Shown: in pieces, positions 13,563 through 41,196 of the stretch
Layout: each line of letters starts with the position of its first letter
Numbering within the stretch: position 1 is the first letter of the stretch
NCBI GenBank assembly: GCA_014799475.1
Contig: JAAVHX010000046.1
Span: 1 to 44,400 of the forward strand
From: Clostridiales bacterium
GTDB lineage: Bacteria; Bacillota; Clostridia; Oscillospirales; Oscillospiraceae
Length of the DNA: 44,400 nucleotides
Direction of reading: 5' to 3'
The notes under the pieces: model-generated
Seen by the model: only the letters and a program-made list of their open reading frames with translations
Database searches by the model: none
What the model was told of the DNA's origin: nothing
Made by a program: the position numbers and the translations under genes

Positions 13563-13663
13563 ATAAAGGCGCTGCCGGTAAGCGGTTAGCTCAACTTTGC
13601 GAAAGTTTCACAGTTTTATGGACAGGAAACCGTCACTTGGCAGAGTGGCGGTTTCTGCTTTTT
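13563..13663 (+). ncRNA. Locus A candidate antisense small RNA
   Basis: About 100 bases from the expected start of the left promoter to a strong intrinsic terminator (stem 13626-13638 with 13643-13655, loop GGCA, then TGCTTTTT). There is no good ORF on the plus strand. The 3' part is antisense to the last codons and stop of the 27-codon minus-strand ORF. The 5' segment GGCGCTGCCGGTAAGCGG is shared with locus B at 40971. Confidence 0.6.
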
Positions 13664-13773
13664 ACCTGAATTGTCACAGTCCATTGACGGATGTGAAATG
13701 TCAAAGTAATCGGCATATATACACCCCCTTTCGGGTAGTGTAGCTTCCCGCCTACCGTTATCACGACAGCGCC
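13568..13773. repeat. Locus A terminal inverted repeats
   Basis: GGCGCTG (13568-13574) is inverted at 13767-13773 (7/7), and CGGTAAGCGG (13576-13585) at 13748-13757 (9/10, the mismatch a G-U pair in RNA). In the minus-strand transcript these would pair the 5' and 3' ends with each other. Confidence 0.7.
13633..13716 (-). CDS. Locus A 27-residue peptide (candidate type I toxin-like ORF)
   Basis: The ORF starts MPITLTFHIRQW and ends VKSRNRHSAK. Its middle is a short beta-like stretch of alternating hydrophobic residues and its tail is basic. A strong AAAGGGGGTG site lies seven bases before ATG 13716, and a consensus promoter lies 64 bases upstream. The 3' third overlaps the plus-strand RNA in antisense. 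There is no membrane helix of normal length, so a membrane toxin is not assured. I do not recognise the family; function unknown. Confidence 0.55.
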   Translation of the reverse strand: MPITLTFHIRQWTVTIQVKSRNRHSAK

Positions 13774-13779
13774 GTTTTC

Positions 13780-13808
13780 ATAATAGCATCTGCGAGATAT
13801 TTTGTCAA
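13780..13808 (-). promoter_or_regulatory. Locus A right promoter (minus strand)
   Basis: Read on the minus strand: TTGACA (13808-13803), 17 bases, TATTAT (13785-13780), then GAAAAC and the inverted repeat. It drives the 27-codon ORF. Confidence 0.75.
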
Positions 13809-13815
13809 CAAACGC

Positions 13816-13865
13816 CGGGAGCGCATGGGAATCAAGGGATTTCCCATTGCGCTCCCGCTCTTTTT
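13816..13865 (+). terminator. Hairpin with T-run overlapping the ilvD promoter
   Basis: A 10-bp outer stem (13816-13825 with 13848-13857) and a 6-bp inner stem (13826-13831 with 13841-13846) are followed by CTCTTTTT. No plus-strand gene needs ending here, and the right arm contains the -35 box of ilvD. Confidence 0.6.
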
Positions 13866-13875
13866 ATGGTACAAT
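13847..13875 (+). promoter_or_regulatory. Promoter for ilvD
   Basis: TTGCGC (13847-13852), 17 bases, TACAAT (13870-13875), giving a leader of about 30 bases with a GAAGGAG site. Confidence 0.6.
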
Positions 13876-13911
13876 ACTTTAACCTATAAAATCGCGAAGG
13901 AGACTTGCGCT

Positions 13912-15573
13912 ATGCGTTCCGACCATGTAAAAAAAGGCGTCCCCACCGCCCCTAACCGCTCCCTGTTCTACGCCCTGGGCTACACCAAGGAGGAGCTGGA
14001 GCGGCCCCTCATCGGCGTGGTGTGTTCCTATAACGAGATCGTCCCCGGCCACATGAACCTGGACAAGATCGCCGAGGCGGTCAAGGCGGGTGTCCGGGCC
14101 GCGGGCGGCACCCCCATCGAGTTCCCCGCCATCGCCGTGTGCGACGGCATCGCCATGGGCCACGTGGGCATGAAATACTCCCTGGTCACCCGGGACCTCA
14201 TTGCCGACTCCACCGAGGCCATGGCCATGGCCCACCAGTTCGACGGGCTGGTGATGATCCCCAACTGCGACAAGAACGTCCCCGGCCTGCTCATGGCGGC
14301 GGCCCGGGTGAACATCCCCACCATTTTCTGCTCCGGCGGGCCCATGCTGGCGGGTAAGCTTAACGATGGCCGCCGCACCTGCCTGTCCCATATGTTCGAG
14401 GCCGTGGGCGGCTACTACGCAGGCAAGCTGGATGAGGCGGGCGTGGAGGAATACGAGAACTGCGCCTGCCCCACCTGCGGCTCCTGCTCTGGGATGTACA
14501 CCGCCAACTCCATGAACTGCCTCACCGAGGCCATCGGCATGGGTCTGAAGGGCAACGGCACCATCCCCGCCGTGTGGTCCGCCCGCCTGCGGCTGGCCAA
14601 GCACGCCGGTATGCAGATCATGGAGCTGGTGAAGCAGGACATCAAGCCCCGGGACATCATGACCGAAGCGGCCTTCCACAACGCCGAGACGGTAGACATG
14701 GCTTTGGGCTGCTCCACCAACACCATGCTCCACCTGCCCGCCATCGCCCACGAGTGCGGCATCGAGCTGGATCTGGATATGTCCAACGAGATCTCCTCCA
14801 AGACCCCCAACCTGTGCCACCTGGCCCCCGCCGGGGACACCTATATGGAGGATCTGGAGGGCGCGGGCGGCGTCCACGCCGTCATGATGGAGCTGAACAA
14901 AAAGGGCCTGCTGGACACCAGCGTCATGACCTGCACCGGCAAGACCCTGGGCGAGAACCTGGAGGGCGTGGTCAACCGCGACCACAACCTGATCCGGCCC
15001 ATCGAGAACCCCTACTCCGCCGACGGCGGCATCGCCGTCCTCAAGGGCAACCTGGCCCCCGAGGGCTGCGTGGTGAAGCGCTCCGCCGTGGCTCCCGAGA
15101 TGATGAAACATCAGGGCCCCGCCCGTGTGTTCAACTCCGAAGAGGAGGCCATCGAGGCCATCTACGCCGGCAAGATCGTGGCGGGCGACGTGGTGGTCAT
15201 CCGCTACGAGGGCCCCAAGGGCGGCCCCGGTATGCGGGAGATGCTCAACCCCACCTCCGCCATCGCGGGCATGGGGCTGGACAAGGACGTGGCCCTCATC
15301 ACCGACGGGCGGTTCTCCGGCGCCACCCGGGGCGCGTCCATCGGTCACGTCTGCCCCGAGGCCGCCCAGGGCGGCACCATCGCCTTCGTGGAGGAGGGCG
15401 ACCAGATTTCCATCGACATCCCCGCCTGCAAGATCGAGCTGCTGGTGGACGAGGCCACCCTGGCCACCCGTAAGGCCGCGTGGGTGTGTCCCGAGCCCAA
15501 GATCAAAACCGGCTACCTGGCCCGGTACGCCAAGCTTGTCACCTCCGCCGCCCGGGGCGCGGTGCTGGAGTGA
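13912..15573 (+). CDS. ilvD: Dihydroxy-acid dehydratase
   Basis: 553 residues, full length. It dehydrates dihydroxyisovalerate and dihydroxymethylvalerate to the 2-oxo acids, the step after IlvC. Cluster cysteines are visible in PNCDKNVPG and in [17 protein letters not shown]. Substrate/Mg motifs include [12 protein letters not shown] and [16 protein letters not shown]. Start at ATG 13912 behind GAAGGAG; the open frame upstream to 13825 contains the promoter. It is separated from ilvC by the HTH pair and locus A. Confidence 0.96.
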
Positions 15574-15614
15574 TCCCCTTCTCCAATCTGTGACGCAAGG
15601 TGGGATTTCGCAAC

Positions 15615-17335
15615 ATGGAACCTATGGATCAGACCTATATGAAGGAGCTGGCCCGGGTGAACGCCGCCCTGGAGGAGGCGCTGAAAGCCGCCGAGGAGGC
15701 CAACCAGGCCAAGAGCCGCTTCCTGTCCAGTATGTCCCACGACATCCGCACCCCCATGAACGCCATTGTGGGCATGACCTCCATCGCCCTGTCCCACATC
15801 GGCGACATCTTTGAGGAAAATCTGGTGGGCGACCCTCTGCGCCTGCGCCAGATCCTGGTGAATATCATCGGCAACGCGGTCAAGTATACCCAGGAGGAGG
15901 GCGAGATCCGAATTCGCTTCACCCAGCGGCCCGCCCCCAACCCCGAGGACGGCCGCCTATGGCTGGACTTTTCCTGCCAAGATAACGGGATCGGCATGAG
16001 CCAGGAATTCCTGAAGCGCATTTTTCTCCCCTTCGAGCGGGTGCAAAACACCACCATCAGCAAGATCGAGGGCACGGGCCTGGGTATGTCCATCGTGAAA
16101 AAGCTGGTGGACAGCATGGGCGGCGACATCACCGCGGAAAGCCAGGAGGGCGTGGGCAGCTGCTTCCGGGTATCGCTCCCCTTCTCCGTCTCCCCGCGCG
16201 GCCACAGAGAGCCCGCCCTGCCTGTGGGGCAGACCGTACTGGTGGCGGAGCCTCGGGACGACCGGGCCGGACAGGTCATGGCCTACCTCCGGGATGCCGG
16301 CCTGGAGCCCATCCGCCTGACCCGCGGCGTGGAGGCCGTCACCCTGCTGACGGAGGCAAAGTACGAAAACCGTATGCCCTGCGCCCTGCTGCTGGGGCAG
16401 GAATTGGCGGATATGTCCCCGCTGGACGCGGCCACTCATGTGCGGCAGCTGGCCGGATCCGCCTTCTCCATCCTTCTGGTGTCCGAGGACGATTGGGGAC
16501 AGATCGAATACCGGGCGGTTTCAGGAGGCGGAGACCCAGGGCAGCCAGCCCCCCGCCAAATCCGCCTTCGGCTACTACACCATTGAGTTCTACTGCGGCC
16601 TCTACAGCCTGGATACCCTGCTTCAAAAGCTGGAGGATGCTGGACGCCGCCGACCCCGCCGACTACTCTACCGACGGAATGTACAGCATGATTTCCCTGC
16701 CCGCCTTTTACAGCCAGTACCTCTCCCAGTACCCCGACCGGATCCCGCCCCGGACAGAGTATATTCAAAGCCTCTACCGGCGGATGCTGGACTACGCGGA
16801 CGCTTACCCCAGACAGCTGAGCGGAGACGGCCTCTTCCTCTACCTGCGCCAGCTCTGCTTTACCTTTATCGAGACCGACGGCGGCCTCTCCTATGGGAAA
16901 TTTTTGCTGCGGCTGATGCCCCGCTTTGCCCCGGAAATCTATCGCCACTCCTATATCGTGGGAGAGGCGGCAAAGACCCTGTGCGCCGCCATTATGGACG
17001 ATGACCCCTTCTATTTTGATGACATCGGCTTTATCCGGGCCCTCAGCGATCCTATGGAGAAGCGCCGGGCGGCAGATGGTGGACATCATCGGCCTGGTCG
17101 ACTGGCTGGAGACTGTCGTCAACTCCGCTCAGATGTATGACAAACCGGCACTGACCTTTGAGGACGCGGCGCGTGCCGCCGCCGAGCTGGAGGGGACGCG
17201 TTTCTCCCCCCTGCTCACCGCCCGTCTCCGGGACGCGCAGACCGCCGCGCGCCTGAAGCTGGCCTGGAGACAGGCGCGCAGGACGCTTACCGCCGGATGT
17301 GCGGCGACGCTCATCCGTCCGAGCCCAAACGCTAA
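15615..17335 (+). pseudogene. Decayed sensor histidine kinase / HD-type signalling gene
   Basis: The first frame (15615-16586) has the phospho-acceptor box SHDIRTPMNAIVGM, then jumps straight to LVGDPLRLRQILVNIIGNAV, so about 80 residues of the dimerisation and ATP-lid region are missing. The ATPase motifs DNGIGM, GTGLGMSIVKKLVDSMGGD are intact, followed by a degraded receiver-like stretch. Homology continues in a second frame (to about 17065: YSQYLSQYPDRI ... EIYRHSYIVGEAAKTL) and then a third (VDIIGLVDWLETV ... EGTRFSPLLTARL), resembling an HD-GYP-type output domain without clear HD residues. Two frameshifts plus an internal deletion indicate a dead gene. Confidence 0.75.
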
Positions 17336-17343
17336 ACCTCAAG

Positions 17344-17378
17344 AACCGCCCCCGGGCACTTGCCCGGGGGCGGTTTTT
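17344..17378 (+). terminator. Intrinsic terminator downstream of the kinase pseudogene
   Basis: A 14-bp GC-rich stem (17344-17357 with 17362-17375) is followed by TTT, just after the last frame of the pseudogene. Confidence 0.88.
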
Positions 17379-17524
17379 ACGCGGGCCATGTGTCTGCATA
17401 AAACTTGAAAAAGGGCTTTCTTTTTCCCCGGCTTTCGTGTATAATGGAGCGAATATACAAAATGGGTTGTTGTGCCCAATAAGACGCGTGCCGGCGGCAG
17501 CCCGCCGGAAGAGGAGGAGTTCCC

Positions 17525-17980
17525 ATGAACAGAAGCACCGCGCGGGAGATCGCCGTCCACTTCGCCTTTGAGCTGGCCTTTTCCGATGAAAAGGCCCAGC
17601 AGCTCCTGGACCGGGCGTTTACCCCGGAGTCTTTCGCCCTGCGGGCCAAGGACGAGCCCATGTATGCCGAGTTCCCCGAAGAGGGGGAGCTGGACTATAT
17701 CACCCGGCTGGTTCGGGGCGTGGGCAGCCACGGCGCGGAGCTGGACGGCTACATCGCCAAGTACGCCAAGGGGTGGAAGTTTGCCCGCATTGACCGGGTG
17801 GCCTCCGCCATCATGCGGGTGACCATGTACGAGATCCTGTATATGCCCGACATCCCCAACAAGGTGGCCATCAACGAGGCGGTGGAGATCGCCAAGAAGT
17901 ACGTGGACGACGATGTGGTGAAGTTCATCAACGGCATCCTGGGCTCCTTTGTCCGCGAGGAGCTGCCGGAGCAGGAGTGA
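17525..17980 (+). CDS. nusB: Transcription antitermination factor NusB
   Basis: 151 residues, all-helical NusB fold. Family pattern: REIAVHFAFELAFSD at the N-terminus, then FARIDRVASAIMRVTMYEI and NKVAINEAVEIAKKYVDDD in the C-terminal half. It binds boxA RNA with NusE/S10 in rRNA antitermination. GAGGAGG sits a few bases before ATG; a TATAAT lies at 17440-17445. First gene of a long overlapping operon running to about 27.9 kb. Confidence 0.94.
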   Translation: MNRSTAREIAVHFAFELAFSDEKAQQLLDRAFTPESFALRAKDEPMYAEFPEEGELDYITRLVRGVGSHGAELDGYIAKYAKGWKFARIDRVASAIMRVTMYEILYMPDIPNKVAINEAVEIAKKYVDDDVVKFINGILGSFVREELPEQE

Positions 17981-17985
17981 GGGCC

Positions 17986-18930
17986 ATGGACGCGCAGTGC
18001 ATCGGGTTCGACACCAGCAACTACACCACCTCCGCCGCCGTGTTCGGCAATGGCACGGCGGAAAACCGGGGCAGGCTGCTCACCGTCCCCGAGGGGGCGC
18101 TGGGCCTGCGGCAGAGCGACGCGCTGTTCCAGCACGTGAAGCGGCTGCACCTCATGGTGGAGCAATTGCGGTCTGACGGGGCCATCGGTCAAATCGCCGC
18201 CGTGGGGGCCTCCACCCGGCCCCGGGAGGTGGAGGGCTCCTATATGCCCTGCTTCCTGGTGGGCGAGGGGGAGGGCCGCGCCCTGGCCTCCGCGCTGGGG
18301 GTTCCCTTTTACCCCTGCTCCCACCAGCAGGGCCATGTGGCGGCGGCGGCCTGGTCGGCTGGTCGGGAGGACTTGCTGGACAGGCCCCATCTGGCCTGGC
18401 ACCTGTCCGGCGGCACCACCGAGCTGCTGCGGGTGGAGCCGGAGGGCCACACCGTCCGGGCGGAAGTGGTGGGCGGCACTGCCGACATCGCGGCGGGCCA
18501 GCTGGTGGACCGGGCCGGAGTACTGCTGGGCCTGCCCTTCCCGGCGGGCAAGGCGCTGGACGCGCTGTATCCCGAGGCGGACAGCGCCGACTTTTTCCGG
18601 GTGAAGCTGAATGACCTGACCTTCTCCCTGTCCGGCATGGAGAACAAGGTGAAGGGACTGGCGGAAAAAGGCGAAGCTCCCGCCAACATCGCCCGGTTTA
18701 CCATCGACACCATCATGAACGTGCTGCTGCGGGCCACCCAGGAGGCGCAGAGGCGCTGGCCGGGGCTGCCCGTGCTGTGCTCCGGCGGAGTGGCCTCCAA
18801 CCGGCAGATCCGGGATGCCATGGAGAAAACCTGCGGCGCGGTGTTTGCCCAGCCCCAGTACGCCACCGACAACGCCATGGGGGTGGCTATTCTTGCCCAC
18901 CGGGCGCTGGAGCGGGGGGTGCCGTGGTGA
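17986..18930 (+). CDS. TsaD/Kae1-like protein (peptidase M22 family paralogue)
   Basis: 314 residues with an ASKHA fold. It opens with CIGFDTSNYTTSAAVF (phosphate-1 loop), has a HxxxH metal pair in HQQGH at residues 113-117, LSGGTTELLRV, and the C-terminal CSGGVASNRQIRDAM. It is shorter and more divergent than canonical TsaD, and is the clostridial paralogue usually found between nusB and xseA. Whether it takes part in t6A synthesis is unknown. Start at ATG 17986 after GGAG; GTG 17977 overlaps the nusB stop and is an alternative. Confidence 0.85.
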   Translation: MDAQCIGFDTSNYTTSAAVFGNGTAENRGRLLTVPEGALGLRQSDALFQHVKRLHLMVEQLRSDGAIGQIAAVGASTRPREVEGSYMPCFLVGEGEGRALASALGVPFYPCSHQQGHVAAAAWSAGREDLLDRPHLAWHLSGGTTELLRVEPEGHTVRAEVVGGTADIAAGQLVDRAGVLLGLPFPAGKALDALYPEADSADFFRVKLNDLTFSLSGMENKVKGLAEKGEAPANIARFTIDTIMNVLLRATQEAQRRWPGLPVLCSGGVASNRQIRDAMEKTCGAVFAQPQYATDNAMGVAILAHRALERGVPW

Positions 18931-20213
18931 ATATTGCCAATTTTCCTGTCTATACTGTATCTCAGGTCAACGGCTATGTGAAGTCGCTGATGGACGATGA
19001 TCCCCTGCTCACCGGCCTGCTGGTGCGGGGGGAGGTCTCCAACTACAAATGCTACCCCTCCGGGCACCACTACTTTTCCCTGAAGGACGAGCAGGGCTCT
19101 CTGCGGTGCGTCATGTTCCGGGGGGAGGCGGCGCGGCTGCGCTTCCGCCCCGCCAACGGGATGCGGGTGGTGGCCTTTGGCCGGGTGTCCGTGTTCCCCC
19201 GGGACGGGCAGTACCAGCTCTATTGCACCGAGCTGATGCAGGACGGCCGGGGGGCGCTGGACGAGGCCTTTGAGCGCCTGCGCCGCCGCTTGGAGGAAGA
19301 GGGCCTGTTCGCCCCCGAGAGCAAGCAGCCCCTCCCCCGCTACCCCAAAAAAATTGCCCTGGTCACCTCCCCGGCGGGGGCGGCGGTCCGGGATATGCTG
19401 CGCGTTTTAGGGGCACGGTGGCCGCTGGCGGATGTGCTGATCGCCCCCGTCCGGGTTCAGGGCCAGGAGGCCGCGGGGGAAATCGCCGCCGCCATCCACC
19501 GCCTGAATAACCGGGCGGACATCGACCTCATCATCACCGGGCGGGGCGGCGGCTCCAAGGAGGATCTGTGGGCCTACAACGAGGAAGTGGTGGCCCGGGC
19601 CATTTACTTCTCCAACATCCCGGTGATCTCCGCCGTGGGCCACGAGCCGGACGTGACCATCGCCGACTATGTGGCGGACGTGCGGGCGGCCACCCCCTCC
19701 AACGGTGCGGAGCTGGCGGTGCCCGACCAGAATGAGGAACGGGCCCGGCTGGAGCAATTGAACCGGCGGCTGGCCCGTGCGCTGCAAAGCCGTCTGGGTG
19801 GGGCCCGGCGGGAGCTGGACCGGCTGAAGCGCAGCCGCGCGCTGACCAACATCAAAACCCCCATCCAGGACCGGCGTTTGGCGGCAGACGACCTGCGGCG
19901 ACGCATGGGCCTGGCCCTGCGGGGGAAAACCGACCGGGCGCGGCAGGAGCTGAACGCCCAGATGGAACGGCTTCCCCTGGCGGCGCGGGCAAGGCTGGCC
20001 GCCCAGCGGAGTCGGCTGGGCCGTCTGGCGGCGGGGCTGGACGCCATGAGCCCGCTGAAGGTGCTGGGCCGGGGTTACGCCATCGCCCGGGCGGGCGATG
20101 ATGTGGTATCATCCATCGCCCAGGCGCGGCCCGGGGACAGATTGGACGTGCTGGTGTCCGACGGCGTGCTGAAATGCGTTGTAGAGGATAAGGAGGAGCG
20201 GACATGGCGGTAA
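18927..20213 (+). CDS. xseA: Exodeoxyribonuclease VII large subunit
   Basis: 428 residues. An N-terminal OB-fold domain (FPVYTVSQVNGYVKSLMDDD, GEVSNYKCYPSGHHYFSLKD) is followed by the catalytic core with GRGGGSKEDLWAYNEE and the HEPDVTIADYVADVRAATPS motif, then a long coiled coil. With XseB it degrades single-stranded DNA to oligonucleotides. Start at GTG 18927, overlapping the previous stop by four bases and preceded by a GGGGGG stretch. Confidence 0.95.
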   Translation: MNIANFPVYTVSQVNGYVKSLMDDDPLLTGLLVRGEVSNYKCYPSGHHYFSLKDEQGSLRCVMFRGEAARLRFRPANGMRVVAFGRVSVFPRDGQYQLYCTELMQDGRGALDEAFERLRRRLEEEGLFAPESKQPLPRYPKKIALVTSPAGAAVRDMLRVLGARWPLADVLIAPVRVQGQEAAGEIAAAIHRLNNRADIDLIITGRGGGSKEDLWAYNEEVVARAIYFSNIPVISAVGHEPDVTIADYVADVRAATPSNGAELAVPDQNEERARLEQLNRRLARALQSRLGGARRELDRLKRSRALTNIKTPIQDRRLAADDLRRRMGLALRGKTDRARQELNAQMERLPLAARARLAAQRSRLGRLAAGLDAMSPLKVLGRGYAIARAGDDVVSSIAQARPGDRLDVLVSDGVLKCVVEDKEERTWR

Positions 20214-20434
20214 AAAAGCAGTCCTTTGAGGAATCCATGGCCCGACTGGAGGCCATCGTGGCCCAGCTGGAAAAGGGCGAGTGCGGCCTGGATCAGTCCC
20301 TGAAGCTGTTCGAGGAGGGGGCCAAGCTGGCCGGCCAGTGCGAGGAGCTGCTGGACAAGGCGGAGCAGAAGGTAGATCTGCTGCTGGCGAACGACCAGGA
20401 GGTTCCCTTCGAGGAGGAAGCAAATGAACTTTGA
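20204..20434 (+). CDS. xseB: Exodeoxyribonuclease VII small subunit
   Basis: 76 residues, two-helix XseB: SFEESMARLEAIVAQLEKGE followed by LDQSLKLFEEGAKL. It binds the coiled coil of XseA in several copies. It overlaps xseA by 10 bases and ispA by 11, with AAGGAGGAG before ATG. Confidence 0.95.
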   Translation: MAVKKQSFEESMARLEAIVAQLEKGECGLDQSLKLFEEGAKLAGQCEELLDKAEQKVDLLLANDQEVPFEEEANEL

Positions 20435-21308
20435 GCGGGAATATCAAGCGGCGCTGTCTCTCGTGGAGGGAGAATTGAACGGCTGCTTCCAGGAGGGCGG
20501 CCCCCAGGGGGAGCTGCTGGACGCCATGCGGTACAGCCTGCTGGCGGGCGGCAAACGGGTGCGGCCCGTGCTGGCGCTGAAGTTCTGCGAGGCTCTGTGC
20601 GGCCAGATGGAGCCCGCCCTGGACTACGCCTGCGGCGTGGAAATGCTCCACACCTACTCTCTCATCCATGACGACCTACCCTGCATGGACGACGACGAGC
20701 TGCGCCGGGGCAAGCCCACCTGCCACGTAAAATACGGCGAGTGGCTGGCCCTGCTGGCGGGGGACGCGCTGCAAACCGCCGCCTTTGAGCGGCTGGCCAC
20801 CTCCCGGCGAGCCGCCCCGGCGGCAAACGGCAGGGCCTGCGCTGTCCTGGCCAAAGCCGTGGGGCGCGGCGGAATGTGCGGCGGGCAGTACCTGGACATG
20901 GTAGACGAGGGCAAAAGCGTGGATCTGGACCGCCTGACCCAGACCCACCTCTGGAAAACCTCCGCCCTGCTGGAGGCGGCCTGCCTGCTGGGGCTGACGG
21001 CCTCCACCGTGGAACCCTCCCCCCAGCAGTGGGCGGCGGCGGAGGAATACGCCCGGGAGTTGGGGCTGGCCTTCCAGATCCGGGACGATATGCTGGACGT
21101 GACCTCCACCGCCGGGGAGCTGGGCAAACCCATCGGCTCCGACGCGGACAACGGCAAAACCACCTTCGTCACCCTGTTCGGGCTGGACAAATGCGCCCAG
21201 CTGGTGGCGGAGCACACCCAGTTTGCCAAACAGAGCGTGTCCGGGGCGTTTGAGCGCCCGGAATTCCTGTGCGCCCTGGCCGATTCCCTGTCGGAACGAA
21301 AAAACTGA
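20424..21308 (+). CDS. ispA: Polyprenyl synthetase (farnesyl diphosphate synthase type)
   Basis: 294 residues. First Asp-rich motif DDLPCMDDD at residues 83-91, followed by LRRGKPT; second Asp-rich motif RDDMLDVT; a GGKRVRP lysine/arginine motif near residue 42. It adds isopentenyl diphosphate to allylic diphosphates, most likely making C15. Its place directly before dxs ties it to the MEP isoprenoid pathway. Chain length is inferred from family and context. Confidence 0.93.
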   Translation: MNFEREYQAALSLVEGELNGCFQEGGPQGELLDAMRYSLLAGGKRVRPVLALKFCEALCGQMEPALDYACGVEMLHTYSLIHDDLPCMDDDELRRGKPTCHVKYGEWLALLAGDALQTAAFERLATSRRAAPAANGRACAVLAKAVGRGGMCGGQYLDMVDEGKSVDLDRLTQTHLWKTSALLEAACLLGLTASTVEPSPQQWAAAEEYARELGLAFQIRDDMLDVTSTAGELGKPIGSDADNGKTTFVTLFGLDKCAQLVAEHTQFAKQSVSGAFERPEFLCALADSLSERKN

Positions 21309-21399
21309 GGGGACGCTTTTAACACTCTTCTCAGCGCCGGAAGCGGCCTTATCGCCTTCAGGCGCTGAGCGCGCCAATGTACAGAAAGGAAGTGCGGCC

Positions 21400-27892: not shown

Positions 27893-27899
27893 CCTGTCA

Positions 27900-28170
27900 A
27901 TGCGAGGATGAGGATCAGTAACCAAAGGCCCTCCTGCCCAGAGAGCCCCCGTTTGGTGGAAGGGGGACAGGAACCGTTGGCGAATACCCCTCGGAGCAGC
28001 CGCCTGAACGGGACGTTTACCGCTCCCCAGTAGGGTCGGACGGGTGCGCCCGGTACAGCGCCGGGGTCCTGTTGGGGACTCCCTGAGGCCGCTCTTCGCG
28101 AGAAGGCGGCAAAACAGAGGTGGTACCGCGAACCTTCGCCCTCTGTCCTGAATGGGACAGGGGGCGTTTT
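27900..28170 (+). promoter_or_regulatory. T-box riboswitch, tyrosine-specific
   Basis: Stem I carries the AGTA motif (27917-27920) and a specifier loop GAATACCCC in which TAC (27985-27987) is the Tyr codon. The T-box core AGGTGGTACCGCG is at 28118-28130; its TGGT bulge would pair with a tRNA 3' end having discriminator A, as tRNA-Tyr does. The terminator is CGCCCTCTGTCC paired with GGACAGGGGGCG (28137-28166) plus TTTT. Uncharged tRNA-Tyr should favour the antiterminator and read-through into the three following genes, the last being tyrS. This also accounts for the non-coding stretch 27887-28206. Confidence 0.93.
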
Positions 28171-32564: not shown

Positions 32565-32593
32565 AAATCAGCATCCTTTCACATGATAAAAGA

Positions 32594-32616: not shown

Positions 32617-32621
32617 GAAAA

Positions 32622-33707: not shown

Positions 33708-33913
33708 CTTGTTTGACCTCCCGCGCGCCGTTCCATCCGGCTGGAATTTAGGGGTTGCGGCCGGTTGGCGGATGCGCTATAATATGAATATTGTCGAAAG
33801 AAGCCGCAAAATGCAGGCTTTGACCACAACACAGCGGTACCTATCATGATAACATCAACACACTAAAGTGTCAATTTTACGTTGCCCTCGCAAGTGGAGA
33901 AATGGAGGACTAA

Positions 33914-35671
33914 ATGAAGCGGAAATTCGTGCAAATTGCAGCCCTATGCCTCTCAGTGGCCCTTTTGCTGCTCTCGGGAGGGGGAAAAGCCGCCGCCTCT
34001 CCCCTGCCCTCCTCCTCGGGCGACAAGATCATCCGGGTGGGCCTCCACTACGGCACCGGGGCCATGGAGGGGCTGAACCTGCTCAACGACGTGGGCTCCG
34101 GCTTCCGCTTCGGCTATTATGACAGCGCCAACCGGTTCGTCGAGCTTGGCTCCACCCCGCAGAAGTCCATCTCCGTGGTGGAAACCATGAACGTCTATTA
34201 CGGCGCCTACAACGGCTATGCCTGCTACCACACCGCCCTCACCGCCTCCGCCGTGGCGGTGGGCGAGTACCATCTCCAGCTGCCGGGGGTGTACGGCACC
34301 TTTGCCGAGGCCCAGGCGGCGGCATCCGCCTATCCCGGCGGCTTCCCGGCGTACATCGGCGGGGCCTTCTACGCCCGCGTGGGCAACTACACTACCCGGG
34401 ATGGGGCGGTTGCCGCCCAAAGCAATCTGGCCGCGCAGGGGGTATACACAGAACTGCGGGGCACATCGGAGTACGGCGTCAGCGTGGTGATCACCGGCAC
34501 CAACACCATCCTGTTCCAGTATGACGACCTGGGCAATGGCACCGGCCTGGGCGTTGAGCCAACTTCACTCAACGGAGAAAAGTGCACCACCTGGAGCAAA
34601 GAGCGTCTATACAACGGCGGCTTCCGCTTCGAGCGCATCAAGGGCGGCAAGCTCACCGTGGTGAACATCCTGGGGCTGGAGGACTACGTGAAGGGCGTCG
34701 TCCCCAATGAGATGAGCAACAGCTGGCCCCTTGAGGCGCTGAAGGCCCAGGCGGTGGCGGCCCGCAGTTACGCCCTCTCTTTGGGCACAAAGCACAGCGC
34801 CCATCACTTTGACATCTGTTTCGATGTCGACTGTCAGGCCTATTATGGCCGGGCCAAGGCAGGGGCAAATTCCGACGCGGCAGTGGATCAGACCGCCGGA
34901 CAGGTGGCCATCTACAACGGCAAGGTCGCCCAAACCTTCTATTATTCCAGCAACGGCGGGGCCAGCGAGAGTGTGTCCACTGTGTGGGGCAGCAACCAGG
35001 CCAGCTACCCCTATCTCGTTGGCAAAATCGACCCCTATGAGGCTGCCGCGAACCTCAACAACAGCTGGACCTATTCCATCAGCGGCGCTTCCCTGGCGGC
35101 CAAGCTCAGGGGGATCGGCTATAACAGCGTGGGCAGCTCCATCACCGCCATCGCCGTGGCCTCCCTGACGGATTCCGGCAACCCCAAGCAGATCACCTTT
35201 ACCGACAGCAGCGGGAAGAACTTCACCATAGACAGCCGGTACGTGGTGGGCATGCTGTCCCTGCGGTCTTACCGCTATGGCTTTGACTCGGCGGCAGCCC
35301 AGCAGCAGCCGTCCGCCGCCGCCCCGTCCTTCAGCGTCAACGGCGCCACGCCCGTCAGCGGCACCGACGGCCTGTACGCCATCGACGGCTCCGGCAACGT
35401 GGTTCCCGTAGGGGCGGACGCCTATGTCATCACCGACAGCGGCACGTCCCTTCTGGGCCAGAGCGGCGGCACAACGGGCGCGGGCGGGAGCGGCCTGGGC
35501 GGGCTCAGCAGCAGCACCGGCCAAAACGGGACATTCACGTTTATCGGCAGAGGCTGGGGCCACAATATCGGCATGAGCCAGTTCGGCGCGAAAGCGATGG
35601 CCGAACAGGGGCATACTTACCTACAGATCCTGCAATTCTACTATACTGGCATTACGGTGGGATATATGTGA
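33914..35671 (+). CDS. SpoIID/LytB-domain secreted protein with SPOR-like region
   Basis: 585 residues. A signal peptide ([20 protein letters not shown]) leads to a roughly 200-residue N-terminal part containing a SPOR-like stretch ([38 protein letters not shown]). The SpoIID core then has [26 protein letters not shown] and the C-terminal [20 protein letters not shown]. SpoIID proteins are lytic transglycosylases acting on peptidoglycan stripped of stem peptides, in engulfment or spore cortex work. A Gly/Ser-rich linker splits the core near residue 530. It overlaps queA by three bases. Confidence 0.9.
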
Positions 35672-36690
35672 AAACCTCAGATTTTTATTTCGACCTTCCC
35701 CAAGAGCTGATCGCCCAGACCCCGCTGGAGCGGCGGGACGCCTCCCGCCTGCTGGCGCTGGACAAGGCCACGGGCGAAAAGCGGCATATGCACTTCTACG
35801 ACCTGCCCTCCCTTCTGCGCCCCGGTGACTGTCTGGTGCTCAACGACAGCCGGGTGCTCCCCGCCCGGCTCATCGGCCGCCGCGCGGGGGGCGGCGCCTG
35901 CGAGGTGCTGCTGCTCATCGATCGCGGGGACAAGGTGTGGGAGTGCCTGGTGCGCCCCGGCAAAAAGCTGCGCCCCGGCGCGAAAGTCACCTTCGGGGAC
36001 AACGAGCTTACGGCGGAAGTGGTAGGTGAAGCGGAGGGCGGCAACCGCCTGGTCCGCTTCGACTACGACGGCATCTTCCTGGAAACCCTGGAGCGGCTGG
36101 GCAAAATGCCCCTCCCCCCCTACATCAAGGAAGAGCTGGAGGACGGGGAGCGCTATCAGACGGTATACTCCAAGGTGGTGGGCTCCGCCGCCGCCCCCAC
36201 GGCGGGGCTGCACTTCACAGATGGACTGCTGGAGCAGATCAAGGCCATGGGGGTGAAGGTGTGCTATGTGACCCTCCACGTGGGCCTGGGCACCTTCCGC
36301 CCGGTGAAGGCGGAAAACCTGGACGAGCACGAGATGCACTCGGAATACTGCGTCATTCCCCAGGAGACCGCCGACACGATCAACGAGACAAAGCGGAACG
36401 GGGGCCGGGTGGTCTGCGTGGGCACCACCTCCTGCCGCACCATCGAGAGCTGGGCGGGCGAGGACGGCACGCTGAAGGCGTCCGCCGGTTGGACGAATAT
36501 CTTCATCTACCCCGGCTACCGCTTCAAGGCGCTGGACGCTTTGGTCACCAACTTCCACCTGCCTGAGTCCACCCTCATCATGCTGGTGTCCGCCCTGGCA
36601 GGCCGGGAACAGGTGCTGGCCGCCTATGAGGAGGCGGTGCGGGAGCGCTACCGCTTCTTCTCCTTTGGGGACGCCATGTTCATCGGATGA
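35668..36690 (+). CDS. queA: S-adenosylmethionine:tRNA ribosyltransferase-isomerase
   Basis: 340 residues, full length. Family motifs: [20 protein letters not shown] at the start, [31 protein letters not shown]-type [14 protein letters not shown] and TTSCRTIES. It transfers the ribosyl group of SAM onto preQ1-tRNA in queuosine synthesis. Start GTG 35668 overlaps the preceding stop (GTGA). Confidence 0.96.
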
Positions 36691-36715
36691 CCGGCATATG
36701 GCAAGACCGGGGCCC

Positions 36716-36755
36716 AAAAATAAAAGGACTGCCTATGGCAGTCCTTTTATTTTTG
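36716..36755. terminator. Intrinsic terminator after queA
   Basis: A 17-bp stem (36717-36733 with 36737-36753, loop TAT) is flanked by A- and T-runs. It marks the end of core DNA before the accessory region. Confidence 0.9.
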
Positions 36756-36762
36756 TCTTGTG

Positions 36763-36926
36763 TTGACAAAAAAGATGCGCCGAACGAAAAGTCTGCAAAA
36801 AGGGGAAAATAAAGGGACCGTCATTCGCCGGGCAGCCGGAAGGCTGCCAGCGAACGATTGGTTGGCAGTTCGCTGGACTGCCTAGTACACCAAAAGAAAA
36901 GACACCCAAAGGGTGTCTTTTCTTTT
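36763..36926 (+). ncRNA. Structured RNA candidate with competing hairpins and a strong terminator
   Basis: A TTGACA at 36763 could be a -35 box but has no good -10. Three pairings compete: hairpin 1 (36824-36854, GGCAGCC/GGCTGCC with TTCGC/GCGAA), hairpin 2 (CCAGCGAAC 36847-36855 with GTTCGCTGG 36868-36876) and hairpin 3 (GGCAGT 36864-36869 with ACTGCC 36877-36882). A 16-bp terminator follows (36892-36907 with 36911-36926) ending in TTTTCTTTT. There is no ORF of note. Identity unknown. Confidence 0.45.
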
Positions 36927-37182
36927 GGTCGGAGTGTAATTATAGGACTTAAAATCGAGAATAAATATCAATGGTTTTCTTCTCCAAGCAAGGGGTTTTA
37001 TCCAAACTGAGAACTTTTTAACGCTGCTCAAATTTGGCTTTGAGCAGCGTTTTCATATAAACATGGAAGGAGACGGCAACAATCATGCCGGAAGTCGTTT
37101 AGGTATGGCTTTCAATATAATCATCGAGATAGTCGTGTAAAGTACGATAATAACGTATATTTTCAGGTTTATCATTGCCAAA
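36927..37182. other. Non-coding junction region
   Basis: It starts with a block resembling a tRNA 3' end, then AT-rich sequence and a 13-bp hairpin (37021-37033 with 37040-37052: AACGCTGCTCAAA/TTTGAGCAGCGTT). A ribosome-binding site and a five-codon ORF MPEVV (37084-37101) follow. 37099-37180 is AT-rich and on the minus strand ends an open frame in YYRTLHDYLDDYIESHT, which looks like the tail of a lost gene. No intact gene seen. Confidence 0.5.
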
Positions 37183-37869
37183 ATGCCGGTCAGCAAGCTC
37201 AACCGCCTGATCCGGCTGTCCGAGGCCACCAAGGACGTGTGCGACCGGGTGGACGATGGCTCCCTCACCCTGTCCGTTGCGTCGGCCCTGTCCTTTTTGA
37301 AGCCGAAAAACCAGGATAATGTGCTGCATCTGATGGACCTGGGCTACAAAGTGCCCGCTGAACGGGTGGAGTACATGAAGAAGGTGGAGAAGGCGGGCAA
37401 GCTGGACGAGGAATCCATGCGGGCTGTGCTGGAGGGCAAAAATGTTCTGGACCCGCCCAAGCAGGAAGCTCCCCAGGCGCCCCAGGTCGAGCAGCCCCAG
37501 CCCAGCGCCCCCGCCCCGTCCACCATCCCCCCGTCCCCGGACGTGCCCCAGGCGGAGGGCGCCCCCGCCGTTCCGCCCCAGCCCACCGAGGGCCAGGATG
37601 GACCTGCCCCCGCCGCTCCGCCTGCCCCTGCCTCCACCGAGGTCCAGCCCCAGGAGAGCAAGGCCCCCTTTGAGGGGAAGCAGGAGCGGCCCGAGCACAC
37701 GAAAGTGGTTTTGGCCGGGGACAGGCTGCGGAAATATTTCCCGGACGTGATGATGACGCCCCGCGAGATCGAGGAAAGCATCTACGACGCCCTGGAGGAA
37801 CGCCGCCAGCGCCAGCAGAAGGAAAAGGAAAAGCTGACGATTTTCCCCAAGCGGGGGCCAAAGCGTTAA
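37183..37869 (+). pseudogene. ParB/Spo0J-family partition protein, N-terminally truncated
   Basis: 228 residues remain. The first 80 match the HTH and linker of ParB proteins of mobile elements (KLNRLIRLSEATKDVCDRVD, LTLSVASALSFLKPKNQDNV). A Pro/Ala/Gln-rich linker and a basic C-terminal segment (RRQRQQKEKEKLTIFPKRGP) follow. The N-terminal nuclease-fold/CTPase domain with its GERR-type motif is missing. The junction to unrelated AT-rich DNA is at about 37178, right before MPVSKLNRL, so this is a deletion remnant although the frame is open. Confidence 0.7.
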
Positions 37870-37949
37870 ATGGTGAGACGCAAAACCCGGCGCGGTTATG
37901 CGCCGCCGCCATTGTCCCCCATAAAATAAATCTCATGGTGAGACACAAA
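37870..37949. repeat. Direct repeat pair and hairpin upstream of mobC (oriT-like)
   Basis: ATGGTGAGACGCAAA (37870-37884) recurs as ATGGTGAGACACAAA (37935-37949), 14/15 identical. Between them is a 6-bp hairpin (37888-37893 with 37900-37905). The position just before a MobC-like relaxosome gene makes this a candidate transfer origin. Confidence 0.4.
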
Positions 37950-37968
37950 TCTATGAAAGGATGGTGCC

Positions 37969-38200
37969 ATGCGAACACGAAAGCACTTCGTTGGTTTATG
38001 GCTGAATGACCAAGAACATCAGCACCTTGTGCGGCAATGTTCAGTGTCCGGCTTAACTGCCAGCGGCCTACTTCGGCAAGCCATTTTAGGCATCGAGCTC
38101 CGCCCACGTCCACCCGACACTTATGCTGCCCTACTCCGGGAGCTGTCCGCTATCGGCAATAACGTGAACCAAATTGCCCACAACACCAACGCCAGCAAAA
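37969..38200 (+). pseudogene. MobC-like relaxosome accessory protein, C-terminally truncated
   Basis: The first 75 residues (FVGLWLNDQEHQHLVRQCSV, TASGLLRQAILG, LLRELSAIGNNVNQIAHNTN) match plasmid/ICE mobilisation proteins of the MobC type: a ribbon-helix-helix DNA-binding part plus the conserved GNNxNQIA helix. At about 38195 the sequence fuses to terminase DNA, and the frame runs on to 38283 as unrelated residues. Normal length is about 110-130 residues. An AAAGGATG site precedes ATG 37969. Transfer function is presumably lost. Confidence 0.75.
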
Positions 38201-39205
38201 CAGCGTCCCAGGATTATTGTTTCTACAGCGGGCAACAAGGACGTGGCCCGTGGCCTGACGCTGCGGTTTGCCCACCTTTCTGAATATGCTTTCTTCCGTC
38301 CAGACCGGGCGCAAAAGCACCTGCTGGCGGTGGAACAGGCTTTGCGGCCTGATGGCTCTATCGTGATTGAATCAACCGCCAATGGCTTGAATCACTTTTC
38401 AGAGCTATGGCAAAAGGCCACCAACGGCGAGAATATGTATCAGCCGCATTTTTATGGCTGGGTGCAGGACAAGCGGATGTTCGCGGACGAATACCGCCAA
38501 TTTACACAGCGGTACATACGGCTCCATGGGAAACTGCCGGAGCTGAACGAACTGGATGAAGCGGAACAGGCCCTTATGGAGCAGGGCGCGAGTATAGAGC
38601 AAATCATATGGCGGCGGATGAAGATTGCCAACAGCAGCCCGGAGGGTTTTCGGCAGGAGTTCCCCGGCAATCCCACGGAGGCATTTGTGTCCACGGGCCG
38701 GAACTTTTTCAATACCGCCCTCATTGCCGAGCGTGTGGCCTTTGTCCATCCGTCTGTCCCGGCCCCGGAACAATTCAAGGGGTACAGCGGCCTGACGTTC
38801 TGGCGGCTCCCAGAGGCCGGGAAACGGTTCTATGTTGGCGTGGACACCGCCGAAGGGCTGGGCAGCGGTGCAGACCATTCCGCCGTTGAGATCATCGACA
38901 AGGACGGCTACCAATGCGCCGAACTTTATAGCGATACAATCAAGCCTTACAAGCTGGCGGCGCTGGTGCTGGAACTGGCAGAATATTATAATCATGCGCT
39001 CATTGTGCCGAAAAAGGCGGCTGCTGGGCACATCGTTGTGGACAAGCTGCGAAACGAGTATCACTACGCAAATCTATACAAATCAAAGCAGTATGACCAA
39101 ACAGGCCGGGTGAAGCGCCGTCCTGGTTGGGAAACCACATCCAAGAGCAGACCTATCATGCTGGAAGATTTTTCAGAGCAGTTTGAACATGGCGAAAGCG
39201 TCTTT
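38201..39205 (+). pseudogene. Phage terminase large subunit, truncated at both ends
   Basis: The frame 38174-39220 is open. Recognisable terminase begins around PRIIVSTAGNKDVARGLTLR, keeps the Walker-B-like HLSEYAFF and SIVIESTANGLNHFSELW, and the RNase H-like nuclease start FYVGVDTAEGLGSGADHSAV. The N-terminal Walker A half is gone. The C-terminus breaks off at about FEHGES, where the frame runs into the end of the minus-strand zinc-ribbon gene. No portal, capsid or small terminase gene is nearby, so it is a stranded fragment. Confidence 0.8.
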
Positions 39206-39721
39206 AGCCATAGCATATAACTCTGATTTTGAAACATAACAATATGAGTTTCCATATTCCTTTGTGGCATTGCAAACTGAACAGATTCCCGTTGTGTTGT
39301 ATTTATGATCTTTCATTTCCGAATAACTTTTTTCACCGCAACGGGAGCATACCGCCGGTTCGGAACAGGTGGCACCAGTCCATTTATGTCCAAGTTTTTC
39401 ACCCGATGTTTCACCGCAAACAGAACAAGTCAATGGAGCAATACAAGTTGCTTGTTTCCAAGTATGGCCATTCCTACAAGGATTCAAGAAAATGACCGCT
39501 ATGGGAATACTTATGATTATTACAAGTGCTAAGAGAGAAATGGCAATGATAGGTGCTTTTGATTTCTTCTTTTTTGGGGTTTTCGTTACTGTGGGGGCTG
39601 GCACCTGGGCTGGTGACGGCATCGGGGCATTTGCTACAACCAGCTTTTTATTGCCGCACATCGGGCAGGCGGTAGCAGACAAGGGTACGAACTTTTTGCA
39701 AGTTGGGCAGATTTTGACCAT
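39173..39721 (-). CDS. Membrane-anchored zinc-ribbon protein
   Basis: 182 residues. An N-terminal zinc ribbon (CPTCKKFVPLSATACPMCG) is followed by a Pro/Lys-rich linker, one membrane helix (IIAISLLALVIIISIPIAVI), then repeated C-x2-C-G / GHxW units (CSVCGETSGEKLGHKW, CSRCGEKS) like those of clostridial surface proteins. GAAGGAGG lies before ATG 39721. The last 15 residues are antisense to the terminase fragment, so the C-terminus is probably not original. Function unknown. Confidence 0.7.
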   Translation of the reverse strand: MVKICPTCKKFVPLSATACPMCGNKKLVVANAPMPSPAQVPAPTVTKTPKKKKSKAPIIAISLLALVIIISIPIAVIFLNPCRNGHTWKQATCIAPLTCSVCGETSGEKLGHKWTGATCSEPAVCSRCGEKSYSEMKDHKYNTTGICSVCNATKEYGNSYCYVSKSELYAMAKDAFAMFKLL

Positions 39722-39860
39722 GGTATGTTCCTCCTTCTATGTATGCCTGCCCTTATTTTACATTATATTATAAAGATATTCAAGATATAATTATATTCAA
39801 ATATAAAAAGGATATATATGGTAATTGAGATATAAGGTATACTTATACAGAGGTGATACC

Positions 39861-40049
39861 ATGGAGCGCCGGAAAATCACAATTTCAAAAAAGGGTGACG
39901 ACGGGTATAAAGTTATTTCTGTGAGACTTAAAGAAAAGACCCTTGAAGCTATTGAGGATATATCAGCGCAAACCAACAGATCACGGAACGAAGTTATCAA
40001 TATCCTTTTGGAAAATGCCACTGAAGATATTGAAATTAAAGAAGATTAG
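39861..40049 (+). CDS. Ribbon-helix-helix (CopG/Arc-type) DNA-binding protein
   Basis: 62 residues. The pattern YKVISVRLKEKTLEAIEDIS followed by TNRSRNEVINILLENA is a classic RHH fold: beta strand, helix, turn, helix. Start at ATG 39861 after GAGGTGAT; the longer frame from 39825 has no site. AT-rich. Such proteins act as antitoxins or autoregulators; the NYN-domain gene downstream is a possible partner. Confidence 0.8.
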   Translation: MERRKITISKKGDDGYKVISVRLKEKTLEAIEDISAQTNRSRNEVINILLENATEDIEIKED

Positions 40050-40137
40050 AAGGGAACGCCAAAATTGACAAGGCGAGATTTATATGAAAAACATTCTAAT
40101 CTGAAAGAAAAGAAAGGGCCGTCAATATAACTTCTTA

Positions 40138-40166
40138 TTGACTTCTAACCCCAGAGGGCTTATACT
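40138..40166 (+). promoter_or_regulatory. Promoter for the NYN-domain gene
   Basis: TTGACT (40138-40143), 17 bases, TATACT (40161-40166). The leader has an 11-bp hairpin (40212-40222 with 40228-40238) eight bases before the ribosome-binding site. Confidence 0.65.
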
Positions 40167-40259
40167 ATTAGTGCAAGGGGCCAAGGTGTCTTTTGTAAAG
40201 TATACGAAAACGGGGAGTAGTGTACAGCACTACTCCCCAAAGTTATGGAGGGGAAAATT

Positions 40260-40868
40260 ATGTTACGTGGTATGGTATTTGTAGATCATATGAATTTTGA
40301 CATTGCTATCCGAGATTACTATATTAAAAGTGGACGTGCCCCGATAAGTTTGGATTATGGAACTCTGTTCCAAGGCATAGTTTCTTTGCTGCCAAACATT
40401 GACTATCTAAAAACTTTTATATTTGCGCCAGCACCTGATAAGTTTTTGATGCAAGATGAAAAATTATCAAGTTATTACAGATGGATTCAAGGTCTAAAAG
40501 GCAGTCCATGTATAGATATAATAGAGGGTAGGTATTTGGCAAGGCCCAAAAATCCGACTGTTGAGATGGACATAAATGATACAAATACATATTATAAAGT
40601 TGAAAAAGGAACGGACATCAATTTAGCGATTCATGCTATAACAAAAGCTCAAGCAAATTCGTTTGATGTGGCTTTCATTGTGAGTGCAGATACAGATTAC
40701 ATTCCTATCTATAGACAGCTAAAAACGCTTGGGAAAATTACCGTTGTTGTTGCTGTGGATGGGCAAAAAATATCAAAGATAAGGCCAGAATGTGATAACT
40801 GTATTTTTTTGGATGATAAGTTTTTTACAAAGCACATTAGAAGAAAAAAAGAAGAAGTAGACGATTGA
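40260..40868 (+). CDS. NYN-domain (PIN-like, LabA/DUF88) putative ribonuclease
   Basis: 202 residues. The PIN-like NYN core is visible: VFVDHMNFD at the N-terminus with the first acidic residue, EKGTDINLAIHAI in the middle, and FIVSADTDYIPIYRQLKTLG near the end, giving the metal-binding aspartates. The C-terminal tail is basic (HIRRKKEE). The family comprises predicted or shown endoribonucleases. Start at ATG 40260, six bases after GGAGGGG, preferred over ATG 40245. AT-rich, in an accessory region; defence or RNA turnover is a guess. Confidence 0.85.
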   Translation: MLRGMVFVDHMNFDIAIRDYYIKSGRAPISLDYGTLFQGIVSLLPNIDYLKTFIFAPAPDKFLMQDEKLSSYYRWIQGLKGSPCIDIIEGRYLARPKNPTVEMDINDTNTYYKVEKGTDINLAIHAITKAQANSFDVAFIVSADTDYIPIYRQLKTLGKITVVVAVDGQKISKIRPECDNCIFLDDKFFTKHIRRKKEEVDD

Positions 40869-40931
40869 ATCCGACAATCGCCCACTTCTAATTGTTCTTC
40901 ATTATGAATTGAAGTGCGAAGATAAAGGAAC

Positions 40932-40960
40932 TTGACAGACAAGGAACAATGGCCTATAAT
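40932..40960 (+). promoter_or_regulatory. Locus B left promoter (plus strand)
   Basis: TTGACA (40932-40937), 17 bases, TATAAT (40955-40960): full consensus, followed after ten bases by the inverted-repeat end. Confidence 0.8.
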
Positions 40961-40966
40961 GTTTTA

Positions 40967-41056
40967 TAAAGGGCGCTGCGGCAAGCGGTTAGCCTGACCA
41001 TTCGACTAAACTAAGTTAGCCGTCCGGGGGCAAGCCGGGCGGCTAACGCGCTTCTG
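40967..41056 (+). ncRNA. Locus B candidate antisense small RNA
   Basis: It begins a few bases before GGGCGCTGC and ends at a 13-bp hairpin (41015-41027 with 41035-41047) with only a weak T-run (CTTCT). It overlaps in antisense the stop and last codons of the 31-codon minus-strand ORF. Its 5' segment matches locus A: ggcgctgc, gg, aagcggttagc. Confidence 0.55.
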
Positions 41057-41196
41057 GGGCTATGTAAATCATCAGTGCAAGCACGATGATGAACCATACC
41101 ACGAAACGAAGGACTTTCGCCCAACGCCCGTTTCCCATCCGCATCACCCCCTTTCGTCAAGGGAGTGGCTAACCGCCTGCTGCTCTTGCAGCGCCC
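40971..41196. repeat. Locus B terminal inverted repeats
   Basis: GGGCGCTGC (40971-40979) is inverted at 41188-41196 (9/9) and GCGGTTAGCC (40985-40994) at 41167-41176 (10/10). The cassette between outer ends is 226 bp, against 206 bp for locus A. Confidence 0.75.
41043..41138 (-). CDS. Locus B 31-residue single-span membrane peptide (candidate type I toxin)
   Basis: From ATG 41138: a short basic start (MGNGRWAKVLR), then one membrane span (FVVWFIIVLALMIYI) and the tail APEAR. This is the usual build of type I toxin peptides: one helix with basic residues next to it. The ribosome-binding sequence CGAAAGGGGGTG is identical to that of locus A and lies eight bases before this ATG; an ATG six bases earlier is too close to it. 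No clear minus-strand promoter was found, unlike locus A. Confidence 0.6.
   Translation of the reverse strand: MGNGRWAKVLRFVVWFIIVLALMIYIAPEAR

Follow-up and report, generated by a model that had tools for sequence, protein, structure and literature searches.

The 44,400-nucleotide stretch of Clostridiales bacterium DNA analysed here (contig JAAVHX010000046.1 of assembly GCA_014799475.1, hereafter the window) holds two small cassettes, A and B, each of which is probably, with a likelihood that we put at about 75%, a type I toxin-antitoxin-like locus built on a modular RNA frame, in which the messenger RNA (mRNA) of a small peptide would be locked 5' to 3' in the manner of hok and aapA. The sequence evidence comprises paired convergent promoters, pairing of the mRNA ends on the mRNA strand, a hairpin over the Shine-Dalgarno (SD) sequence, coding selection on peptide A and the exchange of effectors; from it we infer transcription, toxicity, a block of translation, processing and decay of the RNA duplex. 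In the proposed mechanism, a strong promoter would drive a short antisense RNA, the putative antitoxin, and a weaker convergent promoter the peptide mRNA, which would run across the antisense gene and end on the complement of the antisense 5' end. Since the mRNA 5' end has the same sequence as the antisense 5' end, it could pair with the 3' end of its own molecule. The full-length mRNA, closed end to end and with its SD sequence in a local hairpin, would stay untranslated, while the antisense target at its 3' end would be occupied. The 5' leader would be released for translation once the 3' end, or the antisense RNA, was lost; opened mRNA would then be removed by the antisense RNA, which is complementary to the coding end and the 3' arm. 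Peptides A and B, Hol_Tox peptides and several others would be alternative passengers of this one frame.

Cassette A occupies positions 13514-13808 and cassette B approximately 40932-41250, each flanked by two convergent sigma-70-like promoters (Table 1). The initial annotation of the window had grouped the two on their plus-strand starts (ggcgctgccggtaagcggttagc at 13568 in A and gggcgctgcggcaagcggttagc at 40971 in B), a common leader (CGAAAGGGGGTG, on the minus strand at 13733-13722 and 41156-41145), their sizes (206 and 226 bp) and their terminal inverted repeats, all of which were found as described. Moreover, the predicted antisense RNAs of both cassettes begin GGCGCTGC..AAGCGGTTAGC, and the terminator-like hairpin of the A antisense RNA overlaps the coding end of the peptide open reading frame (ORF) on the opposite strand.

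The pairing of the peptide mRNA from 5' to 3' end, proposed in the initial annotation, is supported by covariation and by a wobble bias specific to one strand. Of 116 candidate rows, four proved to be non-cassette loci and were removed to leave 112 cassettes, and a further two lacked a usable antisense start, so that the arms were compared in 110 cassettes (64 A-type and 46 B-type). The mean alignment score of the mRNA 5' arm with its own antisense 5' end was 15.2 in A and 17.4 in B, which exceeded every one of 5000 permutations of the partners within each type (means of 9.5 and 11.9, maxima of 10.5 and 13.4) and places the inverted-repeat ends beyond chance. The own partner ranked first in 24 of the 64 A-type and 14 of the 46 B-type cassettes (median rank 2), being often not the first because related cassettes have similar arms. 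Covariation was examined in 56 A-type and 40 B-type rows, a selection that favours the structure, after leaving out rows with arm scores below 10 (two of each type) and, by choice, those whose leaders were long or aberrant or whose ends were cut (six A, four B). Here 91.1% (A) and 92.3% (B) of the cells were paired, against 34-48% and 35-53% in slid controls. Two-sided changes were seen in 25 of 39 pairs in A, including 19 of the 23 in the end-to-end helices, and in 22 of 42 pairs in B, including 12 of 21 in these helices; the two-sided cells numbered 183 in A versus 50.8 (standard deviation 5.8) in shuffles, and 150 in B versus 47.1 (standard deviation 8.2). As for the SD hairpins, the five pairs of the A-type one (helix 3) were paired in 88.0% of cells with no two-sided change, and the B-type one (helix 4) had two-sided changes in four of its nine pairs. 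The mRNA ends of this family hence show the conserved pairing by which a 5'-3' lock of the hok/aapA type is recognised.

The distribution of wobble pairs points to the strand that folds, as a folding mRNA would keep G-U pairs on the mRNA and a folding antisense strand would do the reverse. Differences between the arms kept G-U on the mRNA strand in 193 cases versus 27 for the opposite strand, and when counted per locus 83 of the 110 cassettes leaned towards the mRNA strand and 6 towards the other, with 21 ties, which indicates that the mRNA is the molecule that folds end to end. Similar per-locus counts came from loci found by the leader pattern described below, which partly overlap the 110 cassettes: 53:6 among 73 A-type loci, 52:4 among 65 B-type loci and 39:7 among 56 loci of neither type, a group that includes chance matches. 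Gene conversion between the arms would explain the two-sided changes, not the wobble bias, to which strand-biased mutation may also contribute. In the predicted folds, the A mRNA reached -81.5 kcal/mol (z -6.0), and -53.4 (z -2.6) once its 3' arm was removed; the values for B were -117.7 kcal/mol (z -5.3) and -95.0 (z -3.1), the 5' arm re-pairing with the stop-codon stem in the shortened version. By analogy with hok, mRNAs of this kind may remain silent until processed, as the initial annotation had put it.

A further motif, RRCCGCY, lies near the stop codon in 149 of the 178 pattern-found loci in which an ORF could be called (there was none in another 16), compared with 237 of 3560 control windows. 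This second box can pair with GGCGGTY, a first box in the leader, in 94-95% of cells. No covariation was found between the two boxes; their pairing was rejected as an additional one, and RRCCGCY was kept as a conserved, unexplained motif.

The two convergent promoters differ in predicted strength. An antisense promoter was predicted in 111 of the 112 extracted cassettes; taking the best match in the region, a score that flatters both promoters, 87 of these 111 agreed with the consensus at all 12 positions and 107 at 11 or more, and the best mRNA promoter reached 12 positions in 12 of 112 cassettes and at least 11 in 51. Within the same cassette, the antisense promoter scored higher than the mRNA promoter in 89 of 111, the same in 20 and lower in 2. 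At the other end of the mRNA, a hairpin 3' of the 3' arm exceeded the shuffled mean by more than two standard deviations in 48 of 110 cassettes.

The peptides of the cassettes counted are 20-33 aa long. Ratios of nonsynonymous to synonymous substitution rates (dN/dS) in the A-type ORF gave 0.29, against 1.04 and 1.62 in the shifted frames, and 0.19 in the first 17 codons (1.0-2.3 overall in the shifted frames); peptide A is, as a type I toxin gene should be, a small gene under coding selection. The hydrophobic moment of its core, averaged over 64 peptides, was 0.514 at 170 degrees versus 0.218 in shuffled sequences, and 0.172 versus 0.225 at 100 degrees, so that the core of peptide A has, as far as its sequence can tell, the periodicity of an amphipathic beta strand. 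The 46 B peptides displayed little periodicity (0.197 versus 0.194 at 170 degrees; 0.227 versus 0.200 at 100 degrees). Database searches placed neither of them: Pfam returned no match for A or B, Hol_Tox (PF16935, the family of putative holin-like toxins) included; NCBIfam none for A and for B only one below the cut-off (14.4 of 30 bits); PHROGs only matches at E 0.11 or worse; PADLOC none; and Rfam none at the gathering score, either at the cassettes of the window or in eight relatives. A tblastn search with peptide B found nothing in plasmids, and its 214 mycobacteriophage records in phages were discarded, those listed having E values of 0.5 or worse.

The idea of one regulatory frame carrying different effectors, advanced in the initial annotation, holds up well. 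Loci positive for the frame encode 166 distinct peptides, 40 of which fall outside the A and B models, some few of them being A- or B-like by eye. When 10 frame peptides other than A and B were tested, three matched Hol_Tox above the cut-off and a fourth fell just below. The reverse search, starting from Hol_Tox, found PF16935 in 10 of 245 genomes of the order, and the end arms of 9 distinct loci among the 15 Hol_Tox rows scored higher than any of 30 shuffles; the remaining rows comprised one repeat, one just below (L388), one cut by a contig end (L398) and three where no Hol_Tox-like ORF was picked. Outside the order, arms above the maximum of 100 shuffles were present in two of five Hol_Tox loci (L403-L407) of Brevibacillus phages and Streptococcus satellite phages, from which the lock may predate this family. 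End-to-end complementarity could be read by eye in the L403-L407 loci.

These Hol_Tox passengers bear on the strongest of the alternatives, in which the same RNA frame carries a small peptide that is not toxic and that an antisense RNA holds at a low level, such as a membrane regulator, a signal or a bacteriocin-like product. The toxicity of the peptides is putative, and the amphipathic beta periodicity of peptide A, unlike a plain transmembrane helix, would favour this explanation. We nevertheless consider it unlikely, since Hol_Tox peptides use the same frame, a double lock together with a strong antisense promoter is what a harmful product would need, and both the patchy occupancy of one genomic site and a remnant without the peptide start, described below, also speak against it.

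Comparison with known systems places the toxin-antitoxin-like cassettes close to several of them. Toxin mRNAs with long-distance 5'-3' pairing and with hairpins that mask the SD sequence are also those of aapA/IsoA of Helicobacter pylori and of hok/sok (PMC6733600), a likeness in RNA structure; as described in the accessible text of that paper, the SD sequence of the full-length mRNA is masked there by long-distance pairing, whereas here an adjacent local hairpin would do so. Hol_Tox was also found in B. subtilis by the PF16935 search, and the toxins of TxpA/RatA and BsrG/SR4 of this species presumably belong to it. Hol_Tox peptides sit within this order in the same frame as A and B, which are themselves not Hol_Tox. 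The accessible text of PMC6562991 describes type I antitoxins of B. subtilis whose pairing with the mRNA involves the 3' ends, sequestration of the ribosome-binding site, and loci like bsrG/SR4 that can carry another toxin, a precedent for the exchange of effectors in one frame; that text makes no mention of an end-to-end lock that the antitoxin copies. Type I loci of Clostridioides difficile (CD2517.1-RCd8 and others) similarly have toxin and antitoxin genes that converge and overlap, frequently within prophages, but their toxins, compared here by description only, are 34-53 aa long with lysine-rich ends (PMC6563280, in part).

A similar layout is that of par(pAD1)/Fst, and the cassettes could be read as modules of this kind, with convergent RNAs, a common hairpin, repeats at the 5' ends and an antitoxin that pairs in trans with the mRNA at its translation start. 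Convergent promoters, a hairpin at the coding end, an SD stem-loop, repeats at both 5' ends and small size all agree with the description in the accessible text of PMC7472228. The Fst repeats are direct, though, so that there the two RNAs complement each other where the toxin mRNA begins; the repeats here are inverted, and the antisense RNA starts with the same sequence as the mRNA, not with its complement. As peptides A and B also lack a Pfam match, we regard membership of the Fst group as quite improbable.

Turning to the spread of the toxin-antitoxin-like family, profile and pattern searches gave many further copies, and the expectation of the initial annotation that the family is common in these genomes was confirmed at several levels. 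Within the genus, where matches up to E 1 were taken, 21 of 42 genomes have A and 17 have B (the weakest best match of a counted genome having E values of 0.0012 and 2.2e-4, respectively). Family-wide, relatives of A occur in 75 of 300 genomes and 41 of 106 genera, and those of B in 30 genomes and 21 genera, counts in which some of the weakest matches sit in long frames and not in cassettes. The A-type rows listed for the genus contain no internal stop; among the family-wide rows listed, three for A and one for B do. Neither outcome that the initial annotation gave as a refutation, a lack of further copies or copies with interrupted ORFs throughout, was seen. A leader pattern independent of the effector matched 45 of the 300 family genomes, versus 3 of 300 for the reversed pattern, and 92 stretches of viral contigs. 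From these two scans 110 matches were checked, giving 29 A, 22 B and 59 of neither type, the latter representing other effectors, truncated loci and chance matches. The inverted-repeat score cut of 12 applied to pattern-found loci is permissive and lets through several matches without a cassette. In the genome of the window this pattern detects B and not A, whose arm is imperfect (GGCGGGAAGC opposite GCTAACCGC). A stricter pattern found at least 120 stretches in species genomes, and these 120 contained 133 matches (68 A, 52 B and 13 neither, as classed by script). Judged by their titles, 75 of 80 titled stretches belong to Clostridia, where we take some of the named groups and genera to be placed; four are titled only as bacterium, Firmicutes or Bacillota, and one comes from Streptomyces, with no ORF at the match. 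Cultured carriers include Gemmiger formicilis ATCC 27749, Oscillibacter ruminantium GH1 and Flavonifractor plautii ATCC 29863, the last with a B-type cassette and an open frame (L292).

Tandem cassettes exist as well; Vescimonas fastidiosa pMM35_01 is one case, and its annotation shows no gene at the matching position. Two cassettes a few hundred bases apart were observed at L004, L073, L082, L096, L100 and L120. Some viral contigs carry several cassettes with differing effectors (L157, L186, L193 and other IMG/VR loci; examples are IMGVR_UViG_3300012979_000008, 3300012016_000039, 3300006147_000088 and 3300006217_001470).

The suggestion that the family is mobile stands in part. The site upstream of ilvD gave a match in 40 of the 42 genus genomes. 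Of the 30 loci surveyed from these, four had an intact A cassette and one a remnant, in 24 no A cassette was found, and one (L382) was unassessable; this presence and absence at one site, together with the viral contigs, favours mobility; no signature of transposition was found, target-site duplications not having been searched systematically. Seen by eye, the remnant (L364, in a genus relative) keeps the antisense promoter, RNA and terminator and has lost the peptide start with its promoter, which we count in favour of a toxin-antitoxin-like locus. That the cassettes are instead miniature mobile elements, whose inverted ends are transposon ends and whose ORF is incidental, would fit these ends, the small size and the pattern of occupancy among the 30 loci, but is made very improbable by the purifying selection on A, the wobble bias to one RNA strand, the conserved SD and stop hairpins and the position of the promoters outside the repeats.

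A number of observations weigh against the toxin-antitoxin-like reading as set out above. A hairpin past the 3' arm that satisfies all three terminator criteria, the other two being overlap with the -35 box of the antisense promoter and a T-run, is present in only 21 of 110 cassettes, cassette A of the window among them, and the scan of cassette B found no terminator on either strand; with so few full terminator-like hairpins, the 3' end of the mRNA is uncertain. The coding signal of B is weak, with dN/dS of 0.58 versus 0.65 and 1.21 in the shifted frames (0.50 versus 0.60 and 1.57 in the first 17 codons). In the helices, the innermost pair of the A outer helix forms in no more than 14 of 55 rows, each of the outermost pairs in B is unpaired in 11 rows, and the B measure of further pair types was reached by 20 of 500 shuffles. 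Non-cognate arms also lean to G-U on the mRNA strand (656:339), and, some columns being fixed, part of the wobble bias consists of old changes counted many times. Finally, the predicted shortened mRNAs of both A and B retain the SD hairpin, so that loss of the 3' arm alone may not permit translation.

Table 1. Predicted features of cassettes A and B (window positions; ORF spans include the stop codon).
Feature	Position	Strand	Sequence and basis
A antisense-RNA promoter	13529..13556	+	TTGACA, 16 nt, TATAAT; 12/12 consensus positions (scan)
A predicted antisense (antitoxin-like) RNA	13566..13665	+	start GGCGCTGCCGGTAAGCGGTTAGC; putative ends; promoter/terminator scan and sequence
A antisense-RNA terminator-like hairpin	13625..13656	+	followed by T-run; scan; covarying helix 4
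A peptide-mRNA promoter	13780..13808	-	TTGACA, 17 nt, TATTAT; 11/12 consensus positions (scan)
A mRNA 5' arm	13747..13773	-	GGCGCTGTCG..GGTAGGCGG; inner end imperfect; covariation
A SD hairpin, GAAA loop	13720..13742	-	ribosome-binding site AGGGGGTG; helix 3
A peptide ORF, 27 aa	13633..13716	-	MPITLTFHIRQWTVTIQVKSRNRHSAK
A mRNA 3' arm = complement of antisense-RNA start	13568..13590	-	covariation
A mRNA terminator-like hairpin	13514..13544	-	stem-loop contains -35 box of antisense promoter
B antisense-RNA promoter	40932..40960	+	TTGACA, 17 nt, TATAAT; 12/12 consensus positions (scan)
B predicted antisense (antitoxin-like) RNA	40968..41062	+	3' end uncertain; sequence and fold
B peptide-mRNA promoter, weak	41221..41250	-	TTGCTT, 17 nt, TAAGGT; read by eye; absent from scan list
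B mRNA 5' arm	41167..41196	-	GGGCGCTGC..GGCGGTTAGCC; covariation
B SD hairpin	41145..41167	-	helix 4
B peptide ORF, 31 aa	41043..41138	-	MGNGRWAKVLRFVVWFIIVLALMIYIAPEAR
B stop-codon hairpin	41015..41047	both	sequence, folds; covarying helix 5
B mRNA 3' arm = complement of antisense-RNA start	40971..40994	-	covariation

The leader CGAAAGGGGGTG was tried as a marker of the family and rejected, as with up to two mismatches it matched the window seven times with 7.0 matches expected. It has five exact copies in the genome, only two of them in cassettes; from the other three, two form a palindrome and one precedes an ordinary ORF. At L001 (2900-2960), two exact copies form an inverted pair round a short loop, terminator-like and without a cassette. 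No tandem repeats were found at 12900-14000, around cassette A. In the surroundings of cassette B there is an ORF with an NYN-domain match upstream (40245-40868) and a transfer RNA (tRNA) gene (41443-41516), after which come ORFs with amidase and resolvase domains (41788-43855); the tRNA gene and these ORFs possibly mark an integrated element. Elsewhere, the window has a T-box leader (Rfam RF00230) at 27896-28146.

The lock of these cassettes is like known ones, and it is the inverted ends, the exchanged effectors and the beta-patterned peptide that set the family apart. Most of the type I toxins known so far, by a wide margin, have an alpha-helical transmembrane domain (PMC6562991, in part), unlike the beta-patterned peptide A; toxin folds are the subject of PMC8309996. 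Few type I systems have been described in Clostridia other than Clostridioides difficile, according to the accessible text of PMC6563280. Literature searches, which covered few subscription papers and no supplements, showed no account of this cassette family among the records listed, and one of the thousands of candidate structured RNAs from the human microbiome in PMC8040213 could belong to the frame. Altogether, it is conceivable, at somewhat less than even odds, that the cassettes represent a large, undescribed and modular type I superfamily that gut Oscillospiraceae have in common with their phages. The antitoxin would then repeat the 5' sequence of the toxin mRNA, leader and antitoxin would compete for one mRNA 3' end, and effectors would be exchanged, the amphipathic beta-type A among them.

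If this is true, gut Oscillospiraceae would gain a common type I system that is present in cultured strains, and the 5'-3' mRNA lock would become testable in a Gram-positive lineage. One and the same sequence would set both the lock and the silencer. The RNA frame also offers a way to find toxin-like peptides that share no sequence.

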